A stretch of DNA of 64,000 nucleotides from assembly GCF_007997135.1 (NCBI RefSeq), contig NZ_VORU01000001.1:372001-436000 (forward strand), in the 5' to 3' direction. The notes under the pieces are model-generated. The model was not told where the DNA came from. It was given only the letters and a program-made list of their open reading frames with translations, and did no database searches. A program made the translations under genes and the position numbers. This DNA is from Aequorivita lipolytica. GTDB lineage: Bacteria > Bacteroidota > Bacteroidia > Flavobacteriales > Flavobacteriaceae. Shown here one piece after another: positions 2,133 through 63,302 of this stretch. The first letter of the stretch is position 1, and each line of letters begins with the position of its first letter.

Positions 2133-3338
2133 ATGATTAAAAACGTTGGAATTATAGGAAGCGGAACAATGGGTGCTGGTATTGCACAAGTGGCTGCCAC
2201 GGCCGGTTGCTCTGTGAAATTATACGATACAAAAACGGAAGCTTTGGAAAAAGCCAAAGCTGATTTGGAAAAAATAATGGACCGTTTGGTTGAAAAGGGT
2301 AAAATCGATTCCGAAGAAAAAAAACGTATCCAAAACAATATAAAATACGTCAGTTCCCTAAAAGAATTGAAGGATTCTGATTTAACTATTGAAGCGATTG
2401 TTGAAAATTTGGAAGTAAAAAAGAACGTGTTTTCAACGTTGGAAAAGTTTGTGAGTGATGATTGTATTATTGCGTCAAATACTTCATCATTATCCATTGC
2501 GTCCATAGCTTCATCTCTTGAAAAACCTGAACGCTGCATCGGGATTCACTTTTTTAATCCCGCACCGTTGATGAAATTGGTTGAGGTTATTCCTGCAATC
2601 CAAACTTCCGAAGAGATTTTAAAGATTTCCGTTGAAACTATTAAAAACTGGGGGAAAACGGTTGCCGTGGCAAAAGACACTCCTGGATTTATAGTGAACA
2701 GAGTTGCCCGCCCATTTTACGGTGAAGCACTTCGTATTTATGAAGAAGGAATTGCTTCATTTGAAGAAATTGATTCAGCTATGAAGGAAATTGGAAATTT
2801 CAGAATGGGCCCGTTTGAGCTGATGGATTTTATTGGTAACGATGTAAATTACATAGTAACCGAAACCGTTTTTGAAGCATTCTATTACGATCCGCGTTAT
2901 AAACCTTCTTTCACCCAAAAACGTTTTTCCGAAGCTGGCTATTTGGGAAGAAAAAGCGGAAAGGGGTATTATGATTATTCGGAAGAAGGAAAAATGTCAA
3001 TTCGAGCGGTTCCACTGAGCGAAGCCGAAGTGCAGTCGAGAACGAATTCTGGAGAGAAAATTTCAGATGAAATTATTTTTGAAAGAATTCTCGTAATGCT
3101 CATCAATGAAGCCGCCGACGCCTTATTTTGGAACATTGCTTCCGCAGAAGATATAGACAATGCGATGACAAAAGGCGTAAATTATCCAAAAGGTTTATTG
3201 GCGTGGGCAAATGAAAAAGGAATTGATTGGTGCGTTAAAAAAATTGACGAGCTTTATAATGAATATCACGAAGATCGCTACCGTTGTTCACCGTTGTTGC
3301 GGAAAATGAAAAAAGAGGGCTTAAGGTTTGAGCTGTGA
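2133..3338 (+). CDS. paaH: 3-hydroxyadipyl-CoA dehydrogenase PaaH
   Basis: A 401-residue 3-hydroxyacyl-CoA dehydrogenase. The N-terminal Rossmann domain opens with GSGTMGAGIAQ (about 9-19). The catalytic region includes the NTSSLSI segment and the histidine in GIHFFNPAPLMKLVEVI. The C-terminal 3HCDH domain contains GFIVNRVARPFYGEAL. PaaH oxidises 3-hydroxyadipyl-CoA to 3-oxoadipyl-CoA with NAD, just before the thiolase PaaJ. ATG 2133 was preferred over an upstream in-frame start at 2085 because the intervening 16 codons are repeat sequence. Near residue 300 the stretch GCAGTCGAGAACG resembles a repeat word seen elsewhere. Confidence 0.92.
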   Translation: MIKNVGIIGSGTMGAGIAQVAATAGCSVKLYDTKTEALEKAKADLEKIMDRLVEKGKIDSEEKKRIQNNIKYVSSLKELKDSDLTIEAIVENLEVKKNVFSTLEKFVSDDCIIASNTSSLSIASIASSLEKPERCIGIHFFNPAPLMKLVEVIPAIQTSEEILKISVETIKNWGKTVAVAKDTPGFIVNRVARPFYGEALRIYEEGIASFEEIDSAMKEIGNFRMGPFELMDFIGNDVNYIVTETVFEAFYYDPRYKPSFTQKRFSEAGYLGRKSGKGYYDYSEEGKMSIRAVPLSEAEVQSRTNSGEKISDEIIFERILVMLINEAADALFWNIASAEDIDNAMTKGVNYPKGLLAWANEKGIDWCVKKIDELYNEYHEDRYRCSPLLRKMKKEGLRFEL

Positions 3339-3360
3339 GCTCTGAGCTCTGAGCCGTGAG
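3327..3360 (+). repeat. Left arm of inverted-repeat element B
   Basis: An 8-base word TGAGCYNN repeats across the last codons and stop of paaH and continues to about 3372. It matches the reverse complement of 3790-3823 at 27 of 34 positions. The arms enclose an intact four-helix-bundle gene. Confidence 0.7.
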
Positions 3361-3402
3361 CTATGAGCTATGAGTATAGAGAAATAATAAATTCTTGAAA
3401 AT

Positions 3403-3774
3403 ATGTTTAAGAGTGAATATCAGTTTAGTTTTGAGAATCTATTGATATATCAAAAAGCAATGGTTTTCGGAGAAACTATTGATAAAATGGTTGAGTCTTT
3501 TCCGAAAAAAGAAATGTATCGATTGTCCACCCAATTCTGTCGCGCCGCAGATTCTATTGCAGCAAATATTTCAGAAGGTTCGGGCAGTACTGACCCTAAT
3601 TTTAATAGATATTTAAAAATGGCCTGGGATTCCAGCCACGAATGTGTCACTTGGAATTCAAAAGCTTATTTTAGAAAATATATAACTCACGAAGAATTTG
3701 AAAAAAACAGAAAAGAACTAACCGAATTGGGCAAAATGATTTCAGCGCTGCGGCGTAAATTAGTAACAAAGTAA
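3403..3774 (+). CDS. Four-helix-bundle protein (S23/IVS-type)
   Basis: The gene encodes an intact 123-residue protein of the four-helix-bundle family first known from 23S rRNA intervening sequences and related to the Avd proteins of retroelements. Family features are YRLSTQFCRAADSIAANISEGSG around residues 40-62 (the first half of the classic R-A-S-I-N-EG helix boundary) and helices rich in Lys and Glu on both sides. Members form pentameric, positively charged barrels that may bind nucleic acid; the cellular role is unknown. It lies between paaH and paaI with no pathway link and is flanked by inverted-repeat arms, so it is best read as element cargo. Confidence 0.85.
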   Translation: MFKSEYQFSFENLLIYQKAMVFGETIDKMVESFPKKEMYRLSTQFCRAADSIAANISEGSGSTDPNFNRYLKMAWDSSHECVTWNSKAYFRKYITHEEFEKNRKELTELGKMISALRRKLVTK

Positions 3775-3778
3775 ATTT

Positions 3779-4228
3779 ATGGTTAAAGACTCAAAGCTCA
3801 CGGCTCACGGCTCACGGCTCAAAGCTGAATTAATTCCCAAAAAAATGCTCAGCCAAGACGCTTTCAGCCAATGGCTCGGTATTGAAATTTTAGAGGTGAA
3901 AAAAGGAACTTGTAAGGTTGCAATGACTGTTCGGAAAGATATGTTGAACAGTATGCAAAAAGCCCACGGCGGCATCAGTTATAGTTTAGCCGATACCGCG
4001 TTCGGCTTTGCCGCAAACACGCATGGAAAATATGCTGTTTCCATTGAAACATCCATAAACCATATTGAAGCATTAAACGAAGGTGATTACTTAACGGCGG
4101 AATCCGTGATCGAAAAAGTAAATAACAAACTCGGTTTTAATATCGTTGAAGTAAAGCGTGGTGATGAATTGGTTGCGCTTTTTAAAGGCGTTGTTTACAG
4201 AACATCAAAAGATTGGGAAGAAGACTAA
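3779..4228 (+). CDS. paaI: Hydroxyphenylacetyl-CoA thioesterase PaaI
   Basis: This is a hotdog-fold thioesterase. The active-site segment QKAHGGISYSLADTAFG (about 60-76) matches the PaaI motif HGG...SLADTAF, including the aspartate nucleophile. PaaI releases CoA from dead-end ring-hydroxylated products and protects the pathway from CoA depletion. From ATG 3779 the protein has 149 residues, but residues 4-15 are encoded by the repeated word CTCACGG of element B. An in-frame ATG at 3845 gives 127 residues and begins close to where family similarity starts, so the true start is uncertain. Confidence 0.88.
   Translation: MVKDSKLTAHGSRLKAELIPKKMLSQDAFSQWLGIEILEVKKGTCKVAMTVRKDMLNSMQKAHGGISYSLADTAFGFAANTHGKYAVSIETSINHIEALNEGDYLTAESVIEKVNNKLGFNIVEVKRGDELVALFKGVVYRTSKDWEED
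3790..3823 (+). repeat. Right arm of inverted-repeat element B
   Basis: The word CTCACGG is repeated three times in tandem, the reverse complement of the left arm at 3327-3360. It lies inside the open frame of paaI, before or within its first codons depending on the start used. Confidence 0.7.
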
Positions 4229-31960: not shown

Positions 31961-34573
31961 ATGAACTCGAAGGAAACCCGTTCCCAATTTTTAGAATTTT
32001 TCAAATCGAAACAACACCTTATTGTTTCATCAGCGCCGATGGTTGTTAAGAACGACCCAACGCTAATGTTTACCAATAGTGGAATGGCTCCGTTTAAGGA
32101 ATATTTCTTAGGAAATGGAAAGCCCAAAAGCAACCGAATTGCCGATACCCAAAAATGTCTTCGCGTTAGCGGAAAACACAACGATCTTGAAGAAGTGGGG
32201 ATGGATACGTATCATCACACAATGTTCGAAATGCTCGGAAACTGGAGTTTTGGAGATTATTTCAAAAAAGAAGCTATTGAGTGGGCTTGGGAACTTTTGA
32301 CTGAAGTTTATAAAATTGACAAAGAGATTCTGTACGTAACCATTTTTGAAGGTGACGAAAGTGAGGGTTTGGAACGCGATACCGAAGCATACAATCTTTG
32401 GAAACAATTTGTTCCCGAAAACCGAATTTTAAACGGAAACAAAAAGGATAACTTTTGGGAAATGGGTGATCAAGGTCCCTGCGGACCGTGTAGTGAAATT
32501 CACGTTGATATTCGTTCGGCGGAAGAAAAAGCGAAAACTCCAGGGAAAGATTTGGTGAACAACGACCATCCGCAAGTGGTTGAAATCTGGAATCTGGTTT
32601 TTATGCAATTCAACCGAAAAGCCAGTGGCAGCCTCGAAAAGTTACCTGCCCAACACGTTGATACGGGAATGGGTTTTGAGCGTTTGTGCATGGTTTTGCA
32701 AAACAAACAAAGCAATTACGACACCGATGTTTTCACTCCTTTGATTCGCGAAATCGGCGCAATTACAAATACGAATTACGGAAAAGACGAGAGAAAAGAC
32801 ATCGCAATCCGGGTGATTGCAGACCACGTTCGTGCCGTTGCATTCTCTATTGCAGATGGCCAACTTCCAAGTAATACCGGTGCGGGATATGTGATACGAA
32901 GAATTTTAAGAAGAGCAATCCGCTATGGGTTTACGTTTTTGGACAAAAAGGAACCTTTCATTTATAAATTGATTGAAACGCTAAGCGCACAAATGGGCGA
33001 TGCTTTTCCAGAACTTATTACTGAAAAGAATTTAATAACAAACGTTATTCGCGAAGAAGAAAATTCTTTTTTACGCACGCTGGACCAAGGTTTGGTTTTA
33101 CTTGAAAATGTGATTGAAACTGCAGATTCTAAAGAAATTTCTGGAAAAAAAGCGTTTGAACTTTACGACACTTTCGGTTTCCCGATAGATTTGACTGCTC
33201 TGATTTTGCGCGAACGTGGTTATTCTTTAAACGAAAAAGAATTCGATACCGAACTGCAGCAACAAAAAGACCGTTCCCGCGCCGCAACAAAAGTAGAAAC
33301 TGGCGACTGGGTTGTTTTGGAAAAAGACGATGTGGAAGAATTTGTGGGTTACGATACACTGGAAACCCAAGTAAAAATTACCCGTTACCGAAAAGTAGAA
33401 AGCAAAAAAGATGGTGAAATGTACCAATTGGTTTTCAATCTCACACCTTTTTACCCCGAAGGCGGCGGACAGGTTGGCGATAAAGGCTATTTGGAAGCTG
33501 TGGATGGTGGTGTAACCTATATTGTTGATACCAAAAAGGAGAACAATTTAATTATCCACTTTACAAAAACGCTTCCTCGAAATCCCGAAACTACGTTCAA
33601 AGCTGTAGTTGATGAAAAACAACGAAGCCGAACTTCTTCAAATCATACAGCTACGCATTTGCTACACCAAGGTTTGCGAAATATTCTGGGCGAACACGTT
33701 GCGCAAAAAGGAAGTATGGTTCATAGCCGCAATTTGCGATTTGATTTTTCCCACTTCGCTAAAGTCAGCGATGAGGAATTGAAACAAGTTGAAGATTTTG
33801 TAAACGCAAGAATCCGTGAAGGCATTGCTTTGGAAGAAAGAAGAAATATTCCATACCAACAAGCTCTTGACGAAGGTGCAATTGCACTTTTCGGTGAAAA
33901 ATATGGCGATGCCGTTCGTGCGATTAAATTTGGGAAATCGATGGAACTATGCGGCGGAACGCACGTGCCAAATACGAATGATATTTGGCATTTTATCATT
34001 ACTTCTGAAGGTGCGGTTGCTTCGGGAATTAGAAGAATTGAAGCTATAACGGGCGATTCTGCAAAGCAATATTTTATTGACAGAAGTAACTCTTTTGCAT
34101 CACTTCAAAAAACATTGAACAACGCGCAGGATCCTGTAAAAGCTGTTGAAAGTTTACAGGAAGAAAATAATATGTTGCAGAAACAAATTCAGCAATTATT
34201 GAAAGATAAAGCCAAGAATTTAAAAGGTGAATTGAAAGCTGAAATAGAAGAAATAAACGGTGTAAATTTCTTAGCAAAAAAGATAGATCTTGACGCCGGC
34301 GGAATGAAAGATTTAGCCTTTGAACTTGGCGGCGAAACTGAAAATCTATTTTTGGTTTTTGGAGCTGAGCACGATGGCAAAGCTTTGCTGGCCTGCTATA
34401 TTTCAAAAGAATTAGCAACCGACAGAAACCTAGATGCCGGAAAAATTATTCGTGAACTTGGAAAATACATTCAAGGCGGCGGCGGCGGACAAGCATTCTT
34501 TGCAACTGCGGGAGGGAAGAATCCTGCTGGAATAGATGAGGCTCTATCTATGGCAAAGCAATACGTTAAATAG
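31961..34573 (+). CDS. alaS: Alanyl-tRNA synthetase
   Basis: 870 residues with the class II aminoacylation domain ([11 protein letters not shown], then [21 protein letters not shown] in the first 90 residues), the tRNA-binding middle region, and the editing domain whose zinc site is HTATHLLH and CGGTH (near 650). The oligomerising DHHA1 domain ends the protein. The stop codon is followed after one base by inverted-repeat element E. Confidence 0.98.
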
Positions 34574-34574
34574 G

Positions 34575-34599
34575 CTCGCAAAGGCGCAAAGACGCTAAG
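34575..34599 (+). repeat. Left arm of inverted-repeat element E
   Basis: These 25 bases are the exact reverse complement of 34802-34826. The arm begins one base after the alaS stop and is followed by its own partial mirror (to 34630), so it can also fold alone. The arms enclose a deleted GxxExxY gene. Confidence 0.9.
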
Positions 34600-34654
34600 A
34601 AAAAACTTTGCGACTTCGCGTCTTTGCGAGAGAAAAAACTGTATTTTAAAAATC

Positions 34655-34799
34655 ATGGAGCAAAATAATAATTTAACAGAGAATCAAATTGCTTCAATAA
34701 TTGTTGATTGCTGTTATCATATTCATGTTGAATTGGGACCCGGATTATTGGAGTCCATTAATAAAAAATGGAATTAAAAGAATTGTAAATAACCTGTAA
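34655..34799 (+). pseudogene. GxxExxY protein gene with an internal deletion
   Basis: ATG 34655 starts MEQNNNLTENQIASIIVDCC, then HIHVELGPGLLESI, the recognisable N-terminus of GxxExxY proteins. The frame then runs out at 34777. In the next frame KNGIKRIVNNL ends at TAA 34797-34799, which is the conserved C-terminus of the family. About 75 middle residues, including the GxxExxY motif itself, have been deleted. Family function is unknown, though the fold is related to PD-(D/E)XK nucleases. The remnant sits inside a perfect 25-base inverted repeat. Confidence 0.85.
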
Positions 34800-34801
34800 A
34801 A

Positions 34802-34826
34802 CTTAGCGTCTTTGCGCCTTTGCGAG
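34802..34826 (+). repeat. Right arm of inverted-repeat element E
   Basis: Exact reverse complement of 34575-34599 (25 of 25). It starts two bases after the end of the GxxExxY remnant and ends 8 bases before the next ATG. Confidence 0.9.
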
Positions 34827-34834
34827 ATAAAACA

Positions 34835-35806
34835 ATGAAACTAATTACCGAAATACCCCTTAATCAAGAAGAAAATCAAATTGATTATTCTTCAAGAATA
34901 CTTTTGTTGGGAAGTTGTTTCTCGGAAAATATTGGGGGGAAGTTTGATTATTATAAGTTTCAGAATTTGCAGAATCCATTTGGGATTATTTTTAATCCTG
35001 TTTCCATTGAAAAGCTGGTTGCTCGTGCAATTGAAAATCTGCCTTTTTCCGAAGAAGACATCTTTCAGCATAACGAAATCTGGAAATGTTTTGAAGTACA
35101 TTCTGAGCTCTCTTCGTTGGATAAAATTGAATTTTTACGAAATCTTAATTCAGCGCTTCAAAATTTACGGGAAGCTTTATTTTCGGCAACACATATTATT
35201 TTTACGTTCGGTACCTCGTGGGTATACAGAAATATTGAAAGCGGTGAAATTGTTGCCAACTGCCATAAACTTCCGCAGAAAGATTTCACAAAAGAATTGC
35301 TGTCCATTGCTGTAATTTCAGAAATTATTCAAAATACATTTCAAAGAATTTCAGAAATAAACCCGGAAGCAACGATAATAAATACCGTTTCCCCCGTTCG
35401 GCATATTAAAGATGGGTTTGCGGAAAATTCGCTTAGCAAAGCGCACTTACTTTCAGCAATCCATCAACACTTCGACAGGCTCTGTGCGTCGTCATCAACC
35501 ATCAACCATCAACCATTTTACTTTCCTTCCTATGAAATAATGATGGACGAGCTGCGCGATTACCGGTTTTATGCCGAAGACATGCTTCATCCCAACAAAA
35601 CCGCCATCGAAATTATTTGGCAGAAATTCTCAAACGTGTGGATTGCTTCGGAAACAGAATCAATTCAAAAAGAAATTGCCTCCATTCAAAGTGCTTTGCT
35701 TCATAAGGCATTCAACTCTGAAAGCGACGAACATCTTCGGTTTTCAGAAAAACTTCAACTAAAAATTTCTTCACTTCAGCAACAATTTCCGCATATCCAG
35801 TTTTAG
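34835..35806 (+). CDS. GSCFA-domain protein
   Basis: 323 residues with the family motif GSCFSENIGGKF (about 27-38) that gives the family its name, and the later blocks ITFGTSWVYR, NTVSPVRHIKDGF and the C-terminal DMLHPN. The fold is SGNH-hydrolase-like, with the Ser in GSCF and a His/Asp late in the protein as likely catalytic residues; the substrate is unknown. A repeat word is inserted in frame near residues 212-228 (FDRLCASSSTINHQPFY), where two different words follow each other. ATG 34835 follows the right arm of element E. Confidence 0.85.
   Translation: MKLITEIPLNQEENQIDYSSRILLLGSCFSENIGGKFDYYKFQNLQNPFGIIFNPVSIEKLVARAIENLPFSEEDIFQHNEIWKCFEVHSELSSLDKIEFLRNLNSALQNLREALFSATHIIFTFGTSWVYRNIESGEIVANCHKLPQKDFTKELLSIAVISEIIQNTFQRISEINPEATIINTVSPVRHIKDGFAENSLSKAHLLSAIHQHFDRLCASSSTINHQPFYFPSYEIMMDELRDYRFYAEDMLHPNKTAIEIIWQKFSNVWIASETESIQKEIASIQSALLHKAFNSESDEHLRFSEKLQLKISSLQQQFPHIQF
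35462..35518 (+). repeat. Two in-frame words inside the GSCFA gene
   Basis: CACTTCGACAGGCTCTGTGC is followed by three tandem copies of ATCAACC. The second word is the same as in the arms of element F at 60089-60518. The frame is kept. Confidence 0.6.
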
Positions 35807-45622: not shown

Positions 45623-45667
45623 ATTATTACAGAAGATTTGACGAAAGTGCCGAAGGGTAGTTTTCAC

Positions 45668-45717
45668 TGCCTTTAGCATTTTTTAATGAGGTTGCAATCA
45701 GTCAAATCTGTCCTCTT
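45668..45717 (-). promoter_or_regulatory. SAM-II riboswitch upstream of metK
   Basis: On the minus strand the order is GAGG, GATTTGACTGATTGCAA, CCTC, then AAAAAATGCTAAAGG. GAGG (45712-45715) pairs with CCTC (45688-45691). The loop and A-rich tail fit the H-type pseudoknot consensus of SAM-II (conserved GATTTAA-like loop, TTGCAA and GCTAAAAGG). It starts about 7 bases after the expected transcription start. Confidence 0.85.
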
Positions 45718-45730
45718 AATTTGTCTTGGG

Positions 45731-51307: not shown

Positions 51308-51337
51308 CGCTCACAAAGTTCAAACCTTTATTGAAAT

Positions 51338-51453
51338 GTTATCAAGAAAGGCCGAGGGATTAGACCCTATGACGCCTTAGCAACCCTTTCTCAGGAAAGA
51401 AGGTGCTACATTCTACAACGATTCTGGAATTTTTAGAATTGACGATAGATAAC
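51338..51453 (+). promoter_or_regulatory. SAM-I (S-box) riboswitch
   Basis: GTTATC (51338-51343) pairs with GATAAC (51448-51453) as helix P1. Conserved core elements follow in order: AAGAAAGGCCGAGGGATTAGACCC, GACGCCTTAGCAACC (in two parts) and AAGGTGCTACATTC. SAM binding should switch off metY, metX and hom. A short stem at 51461-51480 (CAATTTC/GAAATTG) before a T-rich run could belong to the expression platform; this part is uncertain. Confidence 0.95.
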
Positions 51454-51581
51454 GACAAGACAATTTCTAATCTGAAATTGCTTTTCATTTATTCTTTTTA
51501 ACATTTTTCTATTAAAGTACGTCGCAAGGCGCATTTTGGCTTTTGTTTTAATCTTTTTATTAACTCAAAAAAACTAGAAAA

Positions 51582-57733: not shown

Positions 57734-57787
57734 GTGTATTAATTTTTTATACTGTTACTTTGTACTAGTTCATATTCATATTGAAAA

Positions 57788-57891
57788 GTTATCAAGAAAG
57801 GCCGAGGGAATAGACCCTTTGACGCCTTAGCAACCTCCCGAACTTTCGGGGAAGGTGCTACATTCTATTCGTCTTTGGCGATATAGATAAC
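57788..57891 (+). promoter_or_regulatory. SAM-I (S-box) riboswitch upstream of metH
   Basis: GTTATC (57788-57793) pairs with GATAAC (57886-57891) as P1. The core GGCCGAGGGAATAGACCC, GACGCCTTAGCAACC and GAAGGTGCTACATTC matches the copy at 51338-51453 closely. A hairpin ATTCCC ... AGGGAAT around 57938-57961 may be the regulated terminator. It controls metH, the inserted dehydratase and probably metF. Confidence 0.95.
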
Positions 57892-57983
57892 AACAAACAG
57901 GTTTTTCCTTCACCTTTTCTTGATATAAATTTTTTTGAATTCCCATATTTTTTTAGGGAATGTCAAATTGTATACTATAATTC

Positions 57984-59150: not shown

Positions 59151-60088
59151 TTCCCACGAAACAAGAAGTTGAAGAAGCGTGTGAGCGTGTAAAACCGTAT
59201 GTTCATAACACGCCAGTGCTGAAATCTTCGTATTTAAATGAACTTTCCTGCGCTGAAATTTTCTTCAAATGTGAGAATTTTCAGAAGATGGGAGCTTTCA
59301 AAATGCGCGGCGCAACCAATGCAATTTTACAACTTTCCGAAGCACAGAAAAAAGCGGGAGTTGTAACACATTCCTCGGGAAATTTTGCGCAGGCACTTTC
59401 TTTGGCGGCAAAAAATCTTGGCGTAAAAGCGTATATCGTTATGCCCGAAAATGCGCCACAAGTAAAGAAGGAAGCAGTTAAAGGCTACGGTGGAATTATA
59501 ACAGAATCAGAATCAACGCCAATCGCTCGCGAAACCGAAGCCGAAAGAATTCAAAAGGAAACTGGCGCTACGTTTATTCATCCTTCAAACGACAGAAATG
59601 TGATTCTTGGAAATGCAACTTCCGCAGCAGAGTTATTGCAATCGTATCCCGATTTGGATTACGTTTTCGCGCCCGTTGGCGGTGGCGGATTGATTGCAGG
59701 CACTTCACTTTCTGTAAAATATTTCGGAAATAATTGTAAAACAATTGGTGGCGAACCTTTTGAAGTTGACGATGCTTTCCGAAGCCTAAAAACTGGAAAA
59801 ATAGAATTCAACGAAACCACAAATACCATTGCCGACGGACTGAAAACTTTTCTAGGCGATGTCAATTTTCCAATCATACAGGAATTGGTTTCAGAAATAA
59901 TAAGGGTTGAAGAAACTGAAATCATTTCAGCAATGAAACTTATTTGGGAACGAATGAAAATAATAATAGAACCGAGTTGCGCTGTACCATTTGCTGCTTT
60001 ACTTCGCGAAAAAGAACGATTTAAAAATAAAAAAGTTGGAATCATCCTTTCCGGTGGAAATGTGGATTTGAAGAATTTACCGTTTTAG
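59147..60088 (+). CDS. Threonine/serine dehydratase-like PLP enzyme
   Basis: 313 residues of PLP fold type II. The Schiff-base lysine lies in CENFQKMGAFKMRGATNA near 50 and the phosphate-binding loop is GGGGLIAG near 184. It has no C-terminal ACT regulatory domain, so it resembles catabolic threonine dehydratase or serine racemase rather than the biosynthetic IlvA. It is translationally coupled to metH (four-base overlap) and lies between the two halves of MetH. A role in removing threonine or serine near the methionine branch is possible but not shown. Confidence 0.88.
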   Translation: MIPTKQEVEEACERVKPYVHNTPVLKSSYLNELSCAEIFFKCENFQKMGAFKMRGATNAILQLSEAQKKAGVVTHSSGNFAQALSLAAKNLGVKAYIVMPENAPQVKKEAVKGYGGIITESESTPIARETEAERIQKETGATFIHPSNDRNVILGNATSAAELLQSYPDLDYVFAPVGGGGLIAGTSLSVKYFGNNCKTIGGEPFEVDDAFRSLKTGKIEFNETTNTIADGLKTFLGDVNFPIIQELVSEIIRVEETEIISAMKLIWERMKIIIEPSCAVPFAALLREKERFKNKKVGIILSGGNVDLKNLPF

Positions 60089-60116
60089 TTGATTGTTGTT
60101 GGTTGTTGGTTGATGG
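60089..60116 (+). repeat. Left arm of inverted-repeat element F
   Basis: GTTGTTGGTTG words begin at the base after the dehydratase stop. They match the reverse complement of 60491-60518 at 23 of 28. The arms enclose an intact four-helix-bundle gene. Confidence 0.75.
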
Positions 60117-60129
60117 AAAAAAAATAAAT

Positions 60130-60483
60130 ATGGAATATAGAGATTTGGATGTTTGGAGATTTTCTCGAAAATTGGTCAATTCTGTTTACGAGTTGACGAA
60201 AGGTTTTCCGAAAGAAGAATTATATGGATTCACCAATCAAATAAGAAGGTGCGCAGTTTCCATTCCATCAAATATTGCAGAGGGCTGCGGAAGAAGAACT
60301 TCAAAAGACACAATTCAGTTTTTATATATTTCACGTGGATCTTTATATGAATTAGAAACGCAATTATTTCTGGCATTAGATCAAAACTTTATTAGCGAAG
60401 AGCAATTAAATGAAATCGTTTCTCAAATTGAAAGTTGCAAGAAATTGTTGAACGGATTTATAAATTATTACAAAAAATTATAA
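60130..60483 (+). CDS. Four-helix-bundle protein (S23/IVS-type)
   Basis: An intact 117-residue protein with the classical signature of the rRNA-intervening-sequence family: [20 protein letters not shown], then [30 protein letters not shown] in two adjoining blocks (about 24-53), and the final helix ending in NYYKKL. The role is unknown; nucleic-acid binding is suspected from the family. It sits between the two halves of MetH and overlaps the second by one base (TAATG). ATG 60130 was chosen because the in-frame extension to 60103 is repeat-arm sequence. Confidence 0.9.
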
Positions 60484-63302
60484 TGAAAGTCCATCAACCA
60501 TCAACTATCAACCAACAACCAAAATACCTGAAATTATCAGGCTTAGAACCGCTTATCGTTACCCCCGAAAGCAATTTCATAAACGTGGGTGAGCGTACCA
60601 ATGTGGCAGGTTCAAAGAAATTTCTTCGACTTATAAAAGACCGAAACTTTGAAGAAGCACTTTCCGTAGCGCGCGAACAAGTTGAAAACGGCGCACAGAT
60701 CATCGATATCAATATGGACGATGGTTTGATTGACGGGAAAGAGGCGATGGTGAAATTCCTAAATCTTGTGATTGCCGAACCCGATATTTCGAGAGTCCCA
60801 ATAATGATCGATAGTTCTAAATGGGAAATTATTGAGGCCGGTTTGCAGGTTGTTCAAGGGAAATGTGTAGTAAATTCTATCAGCTTAAAAGAAGGCGAAG
60901 CAGAATTTATCCATCACGCAAAACTCATAAAACGCTACGGAGCCGCAGTAATCGTAATGGCTTTTGATGAAACAGGCCAAGCCGATAATTACGACCGAAG
61001 AATAGAAATCGCAAGTCGATCTTATGATATTTTGGTGAATCAAGTAAAATTCGCGCCGGAGGATATTATTTTCGATTTAAACATTTTCCCTGTCGCCACG
61101 GGAATGGACGAGCATAAAAAAAACGCAATCGATTTTATAGAAGCTACGCGCTGGGTTCGGGAAAATCTACCATACGTGAGTGTGAGTGGCGGTGTGAGTA
61201 ATGTTTCGTTCAGTTTTCGTGGAAACGATCCCGTTAGGGAAGCAATGCATTCGGTGTTTTTGTACCACGCCATTCAGGCAGGTATGAACATTGGGATTGT
61301 AAATCCGGCGATGCTGGAAGTTTACGATGATATTCCAAAGGATCTTTTGGATCGAGTGGAAGATGTGATGTTCGACCGTCGTGAAGATGCCACGGAGCGA
61401 TTATTGGATTTTGCCGAAACCGTAATAGGAACCGCCAAAGAAAGTAAAATTGATTTGTCTTGGCGAGAAGAACCCTTGCAAAAACGCATAACGAGAGCTT
61501 TGGTGAAGGGAATTGACGAATTTATTCTTGAAGATATTGAGGAAGCAAGGCAAGCGGCAGATAAACCGATTGAAGTAATCGAAGGGAATTTAATGACTGG
61601 AATGAATGTAGTTGGTGACCTTTTCGGAAGCGGAAAAATGTTTTTGCCGCAAGTAGTGAAATCGGCACGGGTTATGAAAAAGGCGGTGGGGTATTTACTT
61701 CCATATATAGAGGAAGAAAAGAAAGTTCAGGCAGCGAAGTCCCCCAAACCCCCAAAGGGGGCTTTAAAAAATTCCGAAACATCGGTTCCCCCTTCTGGGG
61801 CTAGGGGGAAAATCCTGATGGCAACCGTAAAAGGCGACGTTCACGACATTGGTAAAAATATTGTTGGCGTTGTTTTGGCGTGCAATAATTATGAAATAAT
61901 TGACTTGGGAGTAATGGTTCCGCCGGAAAAGATAATAGCAACCGCAAAAGAAGAAAACGTGGATGCCATTGGTTTGAGCGGGCTGATTACACCTTCGTTG
62001 GACGAAATGGTTTTTTTGGCGAAGGAAATGCAACGGCAAAATTTCAAAGTTCCATTGCTCATTGGCGGTGCCACAACAAGCAAAGCACATACGGCAGTAA
62101 AAATAGATACAGAATACGAATGCGCGGTTGTTCATATAAATGACGCTTCGCGGGCGGTGACTGTTGTTGGCGATTTGCTTAAAAGAGAAACTTCGGCTTC
62201 CTATAAAGATAATTTGAAAACGGAATACAACACTTTTCGACAAGATTTTTTGAAACGTCAAAAAGTAAAAATCTATTTGCCAATTTCCGAAGCGCGAAAA
62301 AATAAATATCAAATTGATTGGAATACGTCTGAAATAACAAAGCCGAAACAATTGGGCGTTCAAGCTTTAAAGGATTTTGATTTAAGTCTTTTGGAAGAAT
62401 TTATAGATTGGACTCCGTTTTTCAGAAGTTGGGAACTACACGGAAAATATCCAAACATTTTGACAGATAAAGTTGTAGGCGAGCAAGCTTCGGAATTATT
62501 TGAGGACGCAAAAAAAATGCTTCAAAAAATAATTTCAGAAAAACTATTGGAGGCAAGAGCGGTTTTTGGAATTTTTGAGGCGAATACGGTGAATGATGAT
62601 GATATCGAATTAGTCCCCCTAGCCCCCAAAGGGGGAACTGCCCACTCACACGAATTTGTCCCCCCTTTGGGGGCTAGGGGGACGGGGGCTGGGGGGACTT
62701 TCCGAACCCTGCGCCAACAATCCAAAAAAGCAGCAGGCAAACCCAACATAGCTCTGGCAGATTTTATTGCGCCAAAAGAAAGCGGAACTCAGGACTACAT
62801 TGGTTGTTTCTGTGTGAGCACCGGTTTTGGAACACAGGAATTGGCTTCAAAATATGAAAAGGAACACGACGATTACAATTCCATAATGGTAAAAGCGTTG
62901 GCAGACCGTTTGGCAGAAGCACTTGCGGAATATCTTCACAAAAAAGTGCGGACTCAATATTGGGGCTACGCTTCCGAAGAAAACCTTTCCAACGACGATT
63001 TGATTTCAGAAAAATATAAAGGTATTCGTCCAGCACCTGGCTATCCCGCTTGTCCCGACCATTTAGAAAAACTTACCATTTGGGAGCTTCTTAAAGTGAA
63101 AGAAAACATAGGCGTTGAACTTACCGAAAGTTTGGCTATGTGGCCAGCGGCTTCGGTTTCGGGATATTATTTTGCTAATCCCGAAGCGCGCTATTTCGGC
63201 CTTGGAAAAATCAAGGAAGATCAAATTGAAGATTTCGCAAAGCGGAAAAATATGAACTTAGATGAAGCCACAAAATGGCTGAAAACAAACTTAGCAGATT
63301 AG
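60483..63302 (+). CDS. metH: Methionine synthase, folate/cobalamin/activation subunit (split MetH C-terminal part)
   Basis: 939 residues. Pterin-binding domain (about 20-290: [26 protein letters not shown]), helical cap (310-415), cobalamin domain with the cobalt-ligand motif DVHDIGKN near 452 followed by SGLITPSL and GGATTSK, and the SAM-dependent reactivation domain ending with [12 protein letters not shown] near 842. The homocysteine domain is the separate gene at 58134. The first residues ([11 protein letters not shown]) are encoded by the arm of element F. Two in-frame repeat insertions lie between domains, near residues 419-443 and 710-740. ATG 60483 was chosen because earlier starts lie inside the preceding gene. 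Confidence 0.95.
60491..60518 (+). repeat. Right arm of inverted-repeat element F
   Basis: CCATCAACC words, the reverse complement of 60089-60116 (23 of 28), lying inside the first codons of the second metH gene. Confidence 0.75.
61738..61810 (+). repeat. In-frame word insertion in metH between cap and cobalamin domains
   Basis: CCCCCAAACCCCCAAAGGGGG is followed by CCCCCTTCTGGGGCTAGGGGG, in frame with the gene (PKPPKGALK ... VPPSGARG). The two words are inverted relative to each other and could form a stem. Confidence 0.8.
62612..62700 (+). repeat. In-frame word insertion in metH between cobalamin and reactivation domains
   Basis: CCCCCTAGCCCCCAAAGGGGG is followed by its near reverse complement CCCCCCTTTGGGGGCTAGGGGG, and then GGGGGCTGGGGGG. 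In frame it encodes VPLAPKGG and VPPLGARG. Confidence 0.85.

Follow-up and report, generated by a model that had tools for sequence, protein, structure and literature searches.

Tandem-word inverted repeats around GxxExxY genes, and a gene remnant between two such arms in Aequorivita lipolytica

How can an inverted repeat be perfect when the gene that it encloses has decayed? The question is raised by a locus in a 64,000-nucleotide stretch of the Aequorivita lipolytica genome (hereafter, the window), for which a preliminary description reported a perfect 25-base inverted repeat around a gene that had lost its middle. The arms were suggested there to be under selection, homogenised by gene conversion or very young. 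The locus and its neighbours are laid out as follows.

31961 to 34573, forward strand: left neighbour, an open reading frame of 870 aa, which we take to be alaS; the element begins just past its stop codon
34575 to 34599, reverse strand: left arm, CTCGCAAAGGCGCAAAGACGCTAAG, three CGCNAAG words with an 8-nt period and the outer tip leftward, complementary to the right arm at 25 of 25 positions
34606 to 34630, forward strand: extra (third) arm, CTTTGCGACTTCGCGTCTTTGCGAG, forming a hairpin with the left arm
34655 to 34756, forward strand: N-terminal part of a broken GxxExxY (PDDEXK_3) gene, as far as GPGLLES, assigned from PF13366 and from alignment to same-site copies
34758 to 34799, forward strand: C-terminal remnant, LIKNGIKRIVNNL and then a stop codon, out of frame with the piece before it, the sequence between the two being deleted
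34802 to 34826, forward strand: right arm, CTTAGCGTCTTTGCGCCTTTGCGAG
34835 to 35806, forward strand: right neighbour, a GSCFA-family protein (PF08885, E = 2.7e-90), with its start at the ATG read in the sequence

The decayed gene and its site in related genomes

The reported repeat is indeed perfect: the arms are 25 nt long, 100% complementary and separated by 202 nt. They are not unique sequence: in each of them the 8-nt unit CTTNGCGN occurs three times in tandem. With up to one mismatch allowed, CTTNGCGNCTTNGCG is matched seven times in the window against 0.22 matches expected from shuffles, and six of the seven fall in the three arms of this locus. Perfect arms of at least 20 nt are rare. 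Of 219 elements whose gene keeps an open frame across most of the domain, meaning 86 or more model positions, 2 have them; a small number of these genes, for example L257 of the congener G021, do contain a stop elsewhere. The third arm and the left arm pair in an 84% hairpin, with a DNA fold z of −5.4; alignment shows no arm at that place in the copies from G004, G014 and G021, and it may be younger than the element.

That the gene has lost its middle is likewise confirmed. The N-terminal piece matches PF13366 with an E value of 9.3e-4 and 20.0 bits, under the 22-bit cut-off, and the C-terminal piece aligns by eye with the ends of the same-site genes in other copies. By manual count against the stop-free G004 copy, some 250 bp are missing, and the deletion removes catalytic positions, those of the family residues D67, E77, K79, Q91 and Y95. 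The remnant is orthologous to family members at the same site, aligning with the copies that precede GSCFA in G004, G014, G021 and G033. A TIGR04256 search of the A. lipolytica genome did not report it; remnants this short escape the family search, and dead genes may therefore be missed.

The gap before the GSCFA gene was inspected by eye in 25 loci from the same genus (L023–L047). Three gaps hold a GxxExxY gene or remnant (the window, G004 and G014), and 11 a gene-less hairpin of CTCTGTG- or CTCTGCG-type words, one of these (L036) having no alaS end that could be found upstream. In eight (L026, L027, L030, L033, L038, L040, L041 and L043) the hairpin is built on the unrelated word GCAGTT/AACTGC, to which no gene was linked in these congeners' gaps, and the remaining three have neither the gene nor either type of hairpin. 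Outside these 25 loci, the alaS–GSCFA site holds the gene with a stop in one more congener, G021, and a stop-free gene in G033, from another genus, where the arms match at 27 of 27 positions in letters unlike those of the window. Three of the five gene copies at the site are thus broken, each differently: by internal deletion in the window, by a frame change and a stop in G014 and by a stop in G021. The G004 copy has no stops and a shorter left arm.

With copies occupying one site in three congeners and in a second genus, the idea of a very young element is not supported. The preliminary description had proposed comparing the divergence of arms and remnant across orthologous gaps, and the outcome is mixed. 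The two arms of an element have diverged from one another in some orthologues, at 4 of 25 positions in both G014 and G021, and at 0 of 25 in the window and in G033, which has its own letters in both arms; out of 105 positions, the N-terminal part of the gene differs from that of the window at 13–20 in the congeners and at 35 in G033. Homogenisation by gene conversion was not supported. When elements were picked regardless of their own symmetry, arm identity averaged 0.765 within elements against 0.836 between same-side orthologues, and the within-element value was the higher in just 5 of 49 elements. A first comparison had favoured homogenisation (0.871 within elements; 0.829 and 0.801 for the same sides), but its elements had been chosen for symmetry and the result was reversed on the unbiased set.

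Elsewhere in the window, Rfam identifies two SAM riboswitches and one SAM-II riboswitch, at 57786–57893, 51336–51455 and 45662–45721. A strong GTCCCC...GGGGAC palindrome lies at 62613–62683, with similar ones in G012 and G022.

Tandem-word arms and the GxxExxY protein

Two intact GxxExxY genes are present in the A. lipolytica genome, each inside inverted arms, of the word CACAGAG at L001 and CACGAAT at L002. Both pass the curated family cut-off (for L001, PF13366 E = 4e-44), and a protein 98% identical to that of L001 was found in Aequorivita antarctica. Matches to GxxExxY occur in 130 of 198 Bacteroidia genomes. At least 582 loci lie in named genomes; the 80 that match best, many of them from MAGs, belong to Bacteroidota, Planctomycetota, Verrucomicrobia, Acidobacteria, Cyanobacteria, Chloroflexota and Proteobacteria, together with two archaeal MAGs; an arm pair scoring at least 28 was found at 46 of the 77 loci in this set that could be scored.

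The association was measured against mismatched flank pairs, a conservative control because loci share words. An inverted repeat scoring at least 28 joins the gene's own flanks in 143 of the 219 genes, compared with 27 of 655 mismatched pairs. For independent loci the figures are 96 of 149 and 29 of 741; at this threshold 53 of the 149 show no arm pair. The rule used for the gene end misses arms where the frame enters the right arm, as at L112 (score 15, otherwise 123) and L158 (22, otherwise 79). Chains of at least three words in the expected orientation are found in 64 of 153 5′ flanks (42%) and 56 of 157 3′ flanks (36%). In the opposite orientation, which full hairpins would yield, the counts are 15 of 153 (10%) and 18 of 157 (11%); chains occur in 1–2% of windows placed 500 and 800 bp away and at 0 of 158 loci inside the gene. 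A CRCNRRK chain is absent at 32 of 152 loci, 19 of which have an inverted repeat of at least 28 between their own flanks, mostly of other words, so that the chain count understates the presence of arms. We conclude with high confidence that GxxExxY genes have flanking arms of tandem words specific to their lineage.

The word varies from lineage to lineage: CACAGAG, CGCAAAG, CACGAAT, CCGAATT and others. Across 143 armed elements (9901 pairs from different genomes and lacking homologous flanks), protein distance and word distance are correlated with r = 0.43. When words were shuffled among paralogues within genomes (72 elements in 20 genomes), 0 of 2000 shuffles reached the observed correlation of 0.487, the mean being 0.093 and the standard deviation 0.046. 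Genome base composition therefore does not explain the link; the word goes with the protein and not with the genome.

The letters of the word are not equally free to change. In 369 comparisons of orthologous arms, involving 101 distinct target arms and with the words defined by pattern in one partner and left free in the other, positions 1, 3, 6 and 7 had changed in 3.6, 2.1, 5.2 and 3.1% of cases, respectively, and positions 2, 4 and 5 in 12.9, 24.9 and 14.2%; changes amounted to 33.3% in the spacers and 29.6% just outside the arms. This pattern supports selection acting on the arms at the level of words, and to that extent the suggestion of selected arms stands. It does not reach arms around a dead gene: the constraint was measured at loci where the gene is mostly open and so is no proof of arm selection after gene death.

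The GxxExxY protein is about 125 aa long and is assigned to PF13366 and TIGR04256, of the PD-(D/E)xK type. A structure model built from 53 aligned sequences has a mean pLDDT of 95.6. Its best solved match is Cas4 SSO0001, with a Foldseek E value of 1.6e-3 (Z = 9.5, rmsd = 4.4 over 102); no Foldseek match reached an E value of 0.001, and VIA-align also returned restriction enzymes and Holliday-junction resolvases at Z = 6–8, middling values that are not decisive. Residues E27, D67, E77, K79, Q91 and Y95, which we take to be the PD-(D/E)xK and QxxxY motifs, are invariant in 53 of 53 sequences, whose loci were fetched with patterns covering GPGLLES, and also in nine of nine sequences found by profile. 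The fold and the active-site pattern, including Q-x3-Y, resemble those of Cas4 and RecB-like nucleases. Cas4 binds an iron–sulphur cluster, whereas the small GxxExxY protein has no cysteine among its 17 invariant columns (53 sequences). It is probably, to judge from the model, a Cas4-like PD-(D/E)xK nuclease, and that it acts on its own word is a reasonably likely reading of the sequences.

One report places a GxxExxY gene near a CRISPR-like reverse transcriptase (PMC8934634). A role in anti-phage defence was considered and set aside, PADLOC having given just weak Cas4 hits, with E values of 0.015 and 0.036.

Spread of elements and gene-less hairpins

Copies of the element at different loci are alike approximately from arm tip to arm tip, most clearly in L176/L191 from one genome and L101/L167 from two. 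The limits of homology are harder to see in L170/L181 and L189/L196, and between L210 and L214, which come from two congeners and are 97% alike, the homology extends at one end over an additional hairpin and at the other dies away within the arm. In G018 a hairpin–gene–hairpin unit follows an apparent stop codon; in the siblings G012 and G022 the sequence runs on at this point with no such unit, whereas G024 has it too. Target duplication at the one clean insertion amounts at most to AAA, within a run of A. Stretches of 200–236 kb in G012, G022 and G018 have word hairpins or arrays at 6, 4 and 5 places, respectively, some hairpins occurring in one or two of the three species only. The arm tips very probably bound a mobile unit, as these comparisons suggest. 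At many loci the gene has come down to much of the genus by common descent, and its own movement therefore looks rare.

Nested alternating arms, a BIME-like arrangement, precede the GxxExxY gene in L214 and L210. Carriage on phages or plasmids was considered and rejected, the known vehicles being nearly empty: the element is in 0 of 50,697 phage records and 5 of 72,556 plasmid records, and viral contigs, searched with two short patterns, yielded one locus.

The words also occur away from the gene. The A. lipolytica genome contains 20 CTTTGCG arms at up to three mismatches, against none for the reversed pattern, and 14 of these form seven inverted pairs with starts 31–34 bp apart. In six of the pairs the order of the arms is opposite to that around the gene, the seventh being the window's own; the opposite order is not given by simple internal deletion of the gene-bearing form. 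Gene-less hairpins were intergenic at the sites inspected, and as many as 30 three-word arrays occur in one relative. Exact three-word CACAGAG or CGCAAAG arrays go together with the gene among the 198 Bacteroidia genomes, GxxExxY being present in 45 of the 47 that have such arrays and in 85 of the 151 that lack them (kinship-uncorrected Fisher p = 1e-7). For a single word the link is weaker. Five or more CTTTGCG arrays are found in 8 of 59 genomes (G000, G009, G012, G016, G021, G022, G025 and G051), and just two of the eight, G016 and G051, have an intact CGCAAAG-clade gene, a count that leaves out two unplaced genes, the only one of G009, which lies at a contig end, and a broken one of G022. 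A CGCAAAG-clade gene is present in G004, which has one array, and in G033, which has four. Array-rich genomes without a matching gene either have lost it once a burst was over, as happened in the window, or owe their arrays to other enzymes.

Among the Bacteroidia genomes, G172 has 150 matches to the three-word CGCAAAG pattern and just two GxxExxY matches.

We prefer, with a probability of roughly 0.6, to read the locus as a defunct copy of a small, REP-like mobile element that is worked by a Cas4-like nuclease, with its gene killed by internal deletion and its arms retained. The intact form would consist of a single GxxExxY gene, of about 125 aa, between inverted arms, each a few (mostly two to four) tandem copies of a 6–8-nt word spaced 8–11 nt. 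The nuclease would recognise its own word array and cut or nick at the arm hairpins, and this cutting would lead to elements and gene-less hairpins being copied or inserted, often in gaps behind stop codons. What the sequences themselves document of this is the anatomy, its recurrence across phyla, the approximate limits at the arm tips, the presence or absence of units among siblings, the coupling of word to protein, the constraint on letters and the scatter of gene-less hairpins; the enzymatic steps are what the proposal adds.

Other explanations and known systems

An unlikely alternative, in our estimation, is that the arms are mobile repeats run by another host factor, with the GxxExxY genes carried as passengers between two copies. 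It draws on an unrelated family, TIGR02436, which has 21 matches in the A. lipolytica genome, including two elements in the window.

3445 to 3762: TIGR02436 gene (four-helix bundle, S23-like), in an element at 3338 to 3826 with GAGCTGT-like arms matching at 32 of 38 positions
60151 to 60474: TIGR02436 gene (four-helix bundle, S23-like), in an element at 60083 to 60524 with GGTTGATGG-like arms matching at 29 of 35 positions

Genes of this family lie between inverted tandem-word arms at 19 of 27 loci, compared with 5 of 270 mismatched pairs, and their arms in relatives (L331–L359) use many words, among them GTCAGCT, GTGAATT, AGATTTT, GTTTAAA and CAGTCTC. The arm design is therefore not private to the nuclease, a common third factor may handle the arms, and the TIGR02436 genes would be passengers too. 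The frequent lack of an intact matching gene in CTTTGCG-rich genomes fits the same explanation. However, the word tracks the GxxExxY lineage within genomes, which passengers would show only if word and cargo were inherited together and rarely exchanged, and the active-site residues of the nuclease have been kept.

The GSCFA gene of the window contains, in a variable linker at 35440–35520, a CATCAACC array resembling the arms of a TIGR02436 element. Species-specific peptides are found in this linker (HPELVEG, SLSLRAQS and TINHQ), and they look repeat-derived.

It is improbable that the hairpins serve many genes as terminators of transcription or as signals for RNA processing and are retained for that purpose, with the gene between them incidental. 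Several of the inspected hairpins do stand directly behind stop codons, the RNA fold of the window locus has a z of −6.3 with its two arms paired over 25 bp, and most of the inspected congeners have another hairpin in the same gap. Yet a terminator scan found no intrinsic terminator (GC stem and T run) in 34450–34950, and a role of this kind leaves the lineage-specific words, the tie to GxxExxY and the presence or absence among siblings without explanation. Rfam reported nothing above threshold at the locus.

We give little credence to a homing-type process in which the nuclease cuts word hairpins, repair copies the element in and newer words overwrite old hairpins. Homing enzymes of the PD-(D/E)xK type exist, three mapped places in the sibling trio G012, G022 and G018 hold hairpins of different words in different species, and the G018 unit is flanked by two near-identical direct hairpins; the same pattern would, however, be given by repeated independent insertion into tolerated gaps, and the arms within an element are not homogenised.

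Mobilisation of a REP system by a Y1 (HUH) tyrosine transposase, in the style of REP–RAYT, is highly improbable, for although the anatomy and spread are REP-like and the A. lipolytica genome has one Y1_Tnp gene, that gene has a different flanking palindrome around GTCCCGTTAGGGAC and, by eye, no word arrays, and the tags GTAG/CTAC and CGTC/GACG, counted anywhere in the arm rather than at its end, occur in 9 and 26 of 286 arms, respectively, against 49 and 38 in one shuffle per arm. The CGTC in the arms of the window is itself internal and not at an end.

The preferred reading, a REP-like element served by a Cas4-like nuclease, can be set beside several known systems. Our searches of the open-access literature, with subscription papers mostly outside their scope, found no description of these elements. 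In way of working, the closest system is REP–RAYT: REPs and REPINs with their RAYT (TnpA-REP) enzyme are likewise short gene-less palindromes, and the enzyme gene is flanked by the same repeats. One study suggests that enzyme and repeat co-evolve (PMC6006769), and another describes REPs as occurring singly, as dimers in one or the other orientation and in clusters (PMC3733652). The enzyme family differs, a PF13366 Cas4-like PD-(D/E)xK protein here and a Y1 HUH protein in RAYT; moreover, the arms are tandem words rather than one stem, and GTAG and CGTC, counted anywhere in the arm, are not enriched.

In anatomy the closest are the 23S rRNA intervening sequences. Those with an S23 protein in Coxiella and Leptospira have a single small open reading frame in an inverted-repeat stem and are called selfish (PMC4990558). 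They sit in rRNA, from which RNase III cuts them out, and their protein belongs to a different family from GxxExxY; the copy in the window lies between the 870-aa reading frame and the GSCFA gene, not in a 23S rRNA gene. The TIGR02436 genes found here outside 23S rRNA do have tandem-word arms.

The TAACTGA heptamers of Beggiatoaceae, Cyanobacteria and Bacteroidetes are described, in an excerpt of their report, as tandem, largely intergenic and patchy across phyla, with mobility considered (PMC4679880). They differ in having one word only, in direct arrays, and the same excerpt describes no associated enzyme gene. MITEs and insertion sequences share with the present elements the terminal inverted repeats and the occurrence of copies with and without a gene; in contrast, no DDE or HUH transposase is encoded here, there is no clear target duplication and the ends are built of words.

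We put forward tentatively, and at somewhat less than even odds, that these elements form a class of prokaryotic mobile element not described before, in which short tandem-word arrays are read by a Cas4-like nuclease with one specificity per protein lineage, the arm design being shared by the mutually unrelated PD-(D/E)xK nuclease and TIGR02436 four-helix bundle. If this is true, the solo arrays would preserve, across the genome, a record of the specificities that nucleases had in the past. It would carry the REP idea, of palindromes with a resident enzyme, beyond the HUH transposases. Many genes are named GxxExxY, but no function is attached to the name, which is rarely mentioned in the open-access literature that we searched; the tie to its own flanking word arrays would give it a function that can be tested. 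Nucleases with naturally diversified word preferences, each with its presumed target alongside, would also be useful material for work on how Cas4-like folds recognise sequence.
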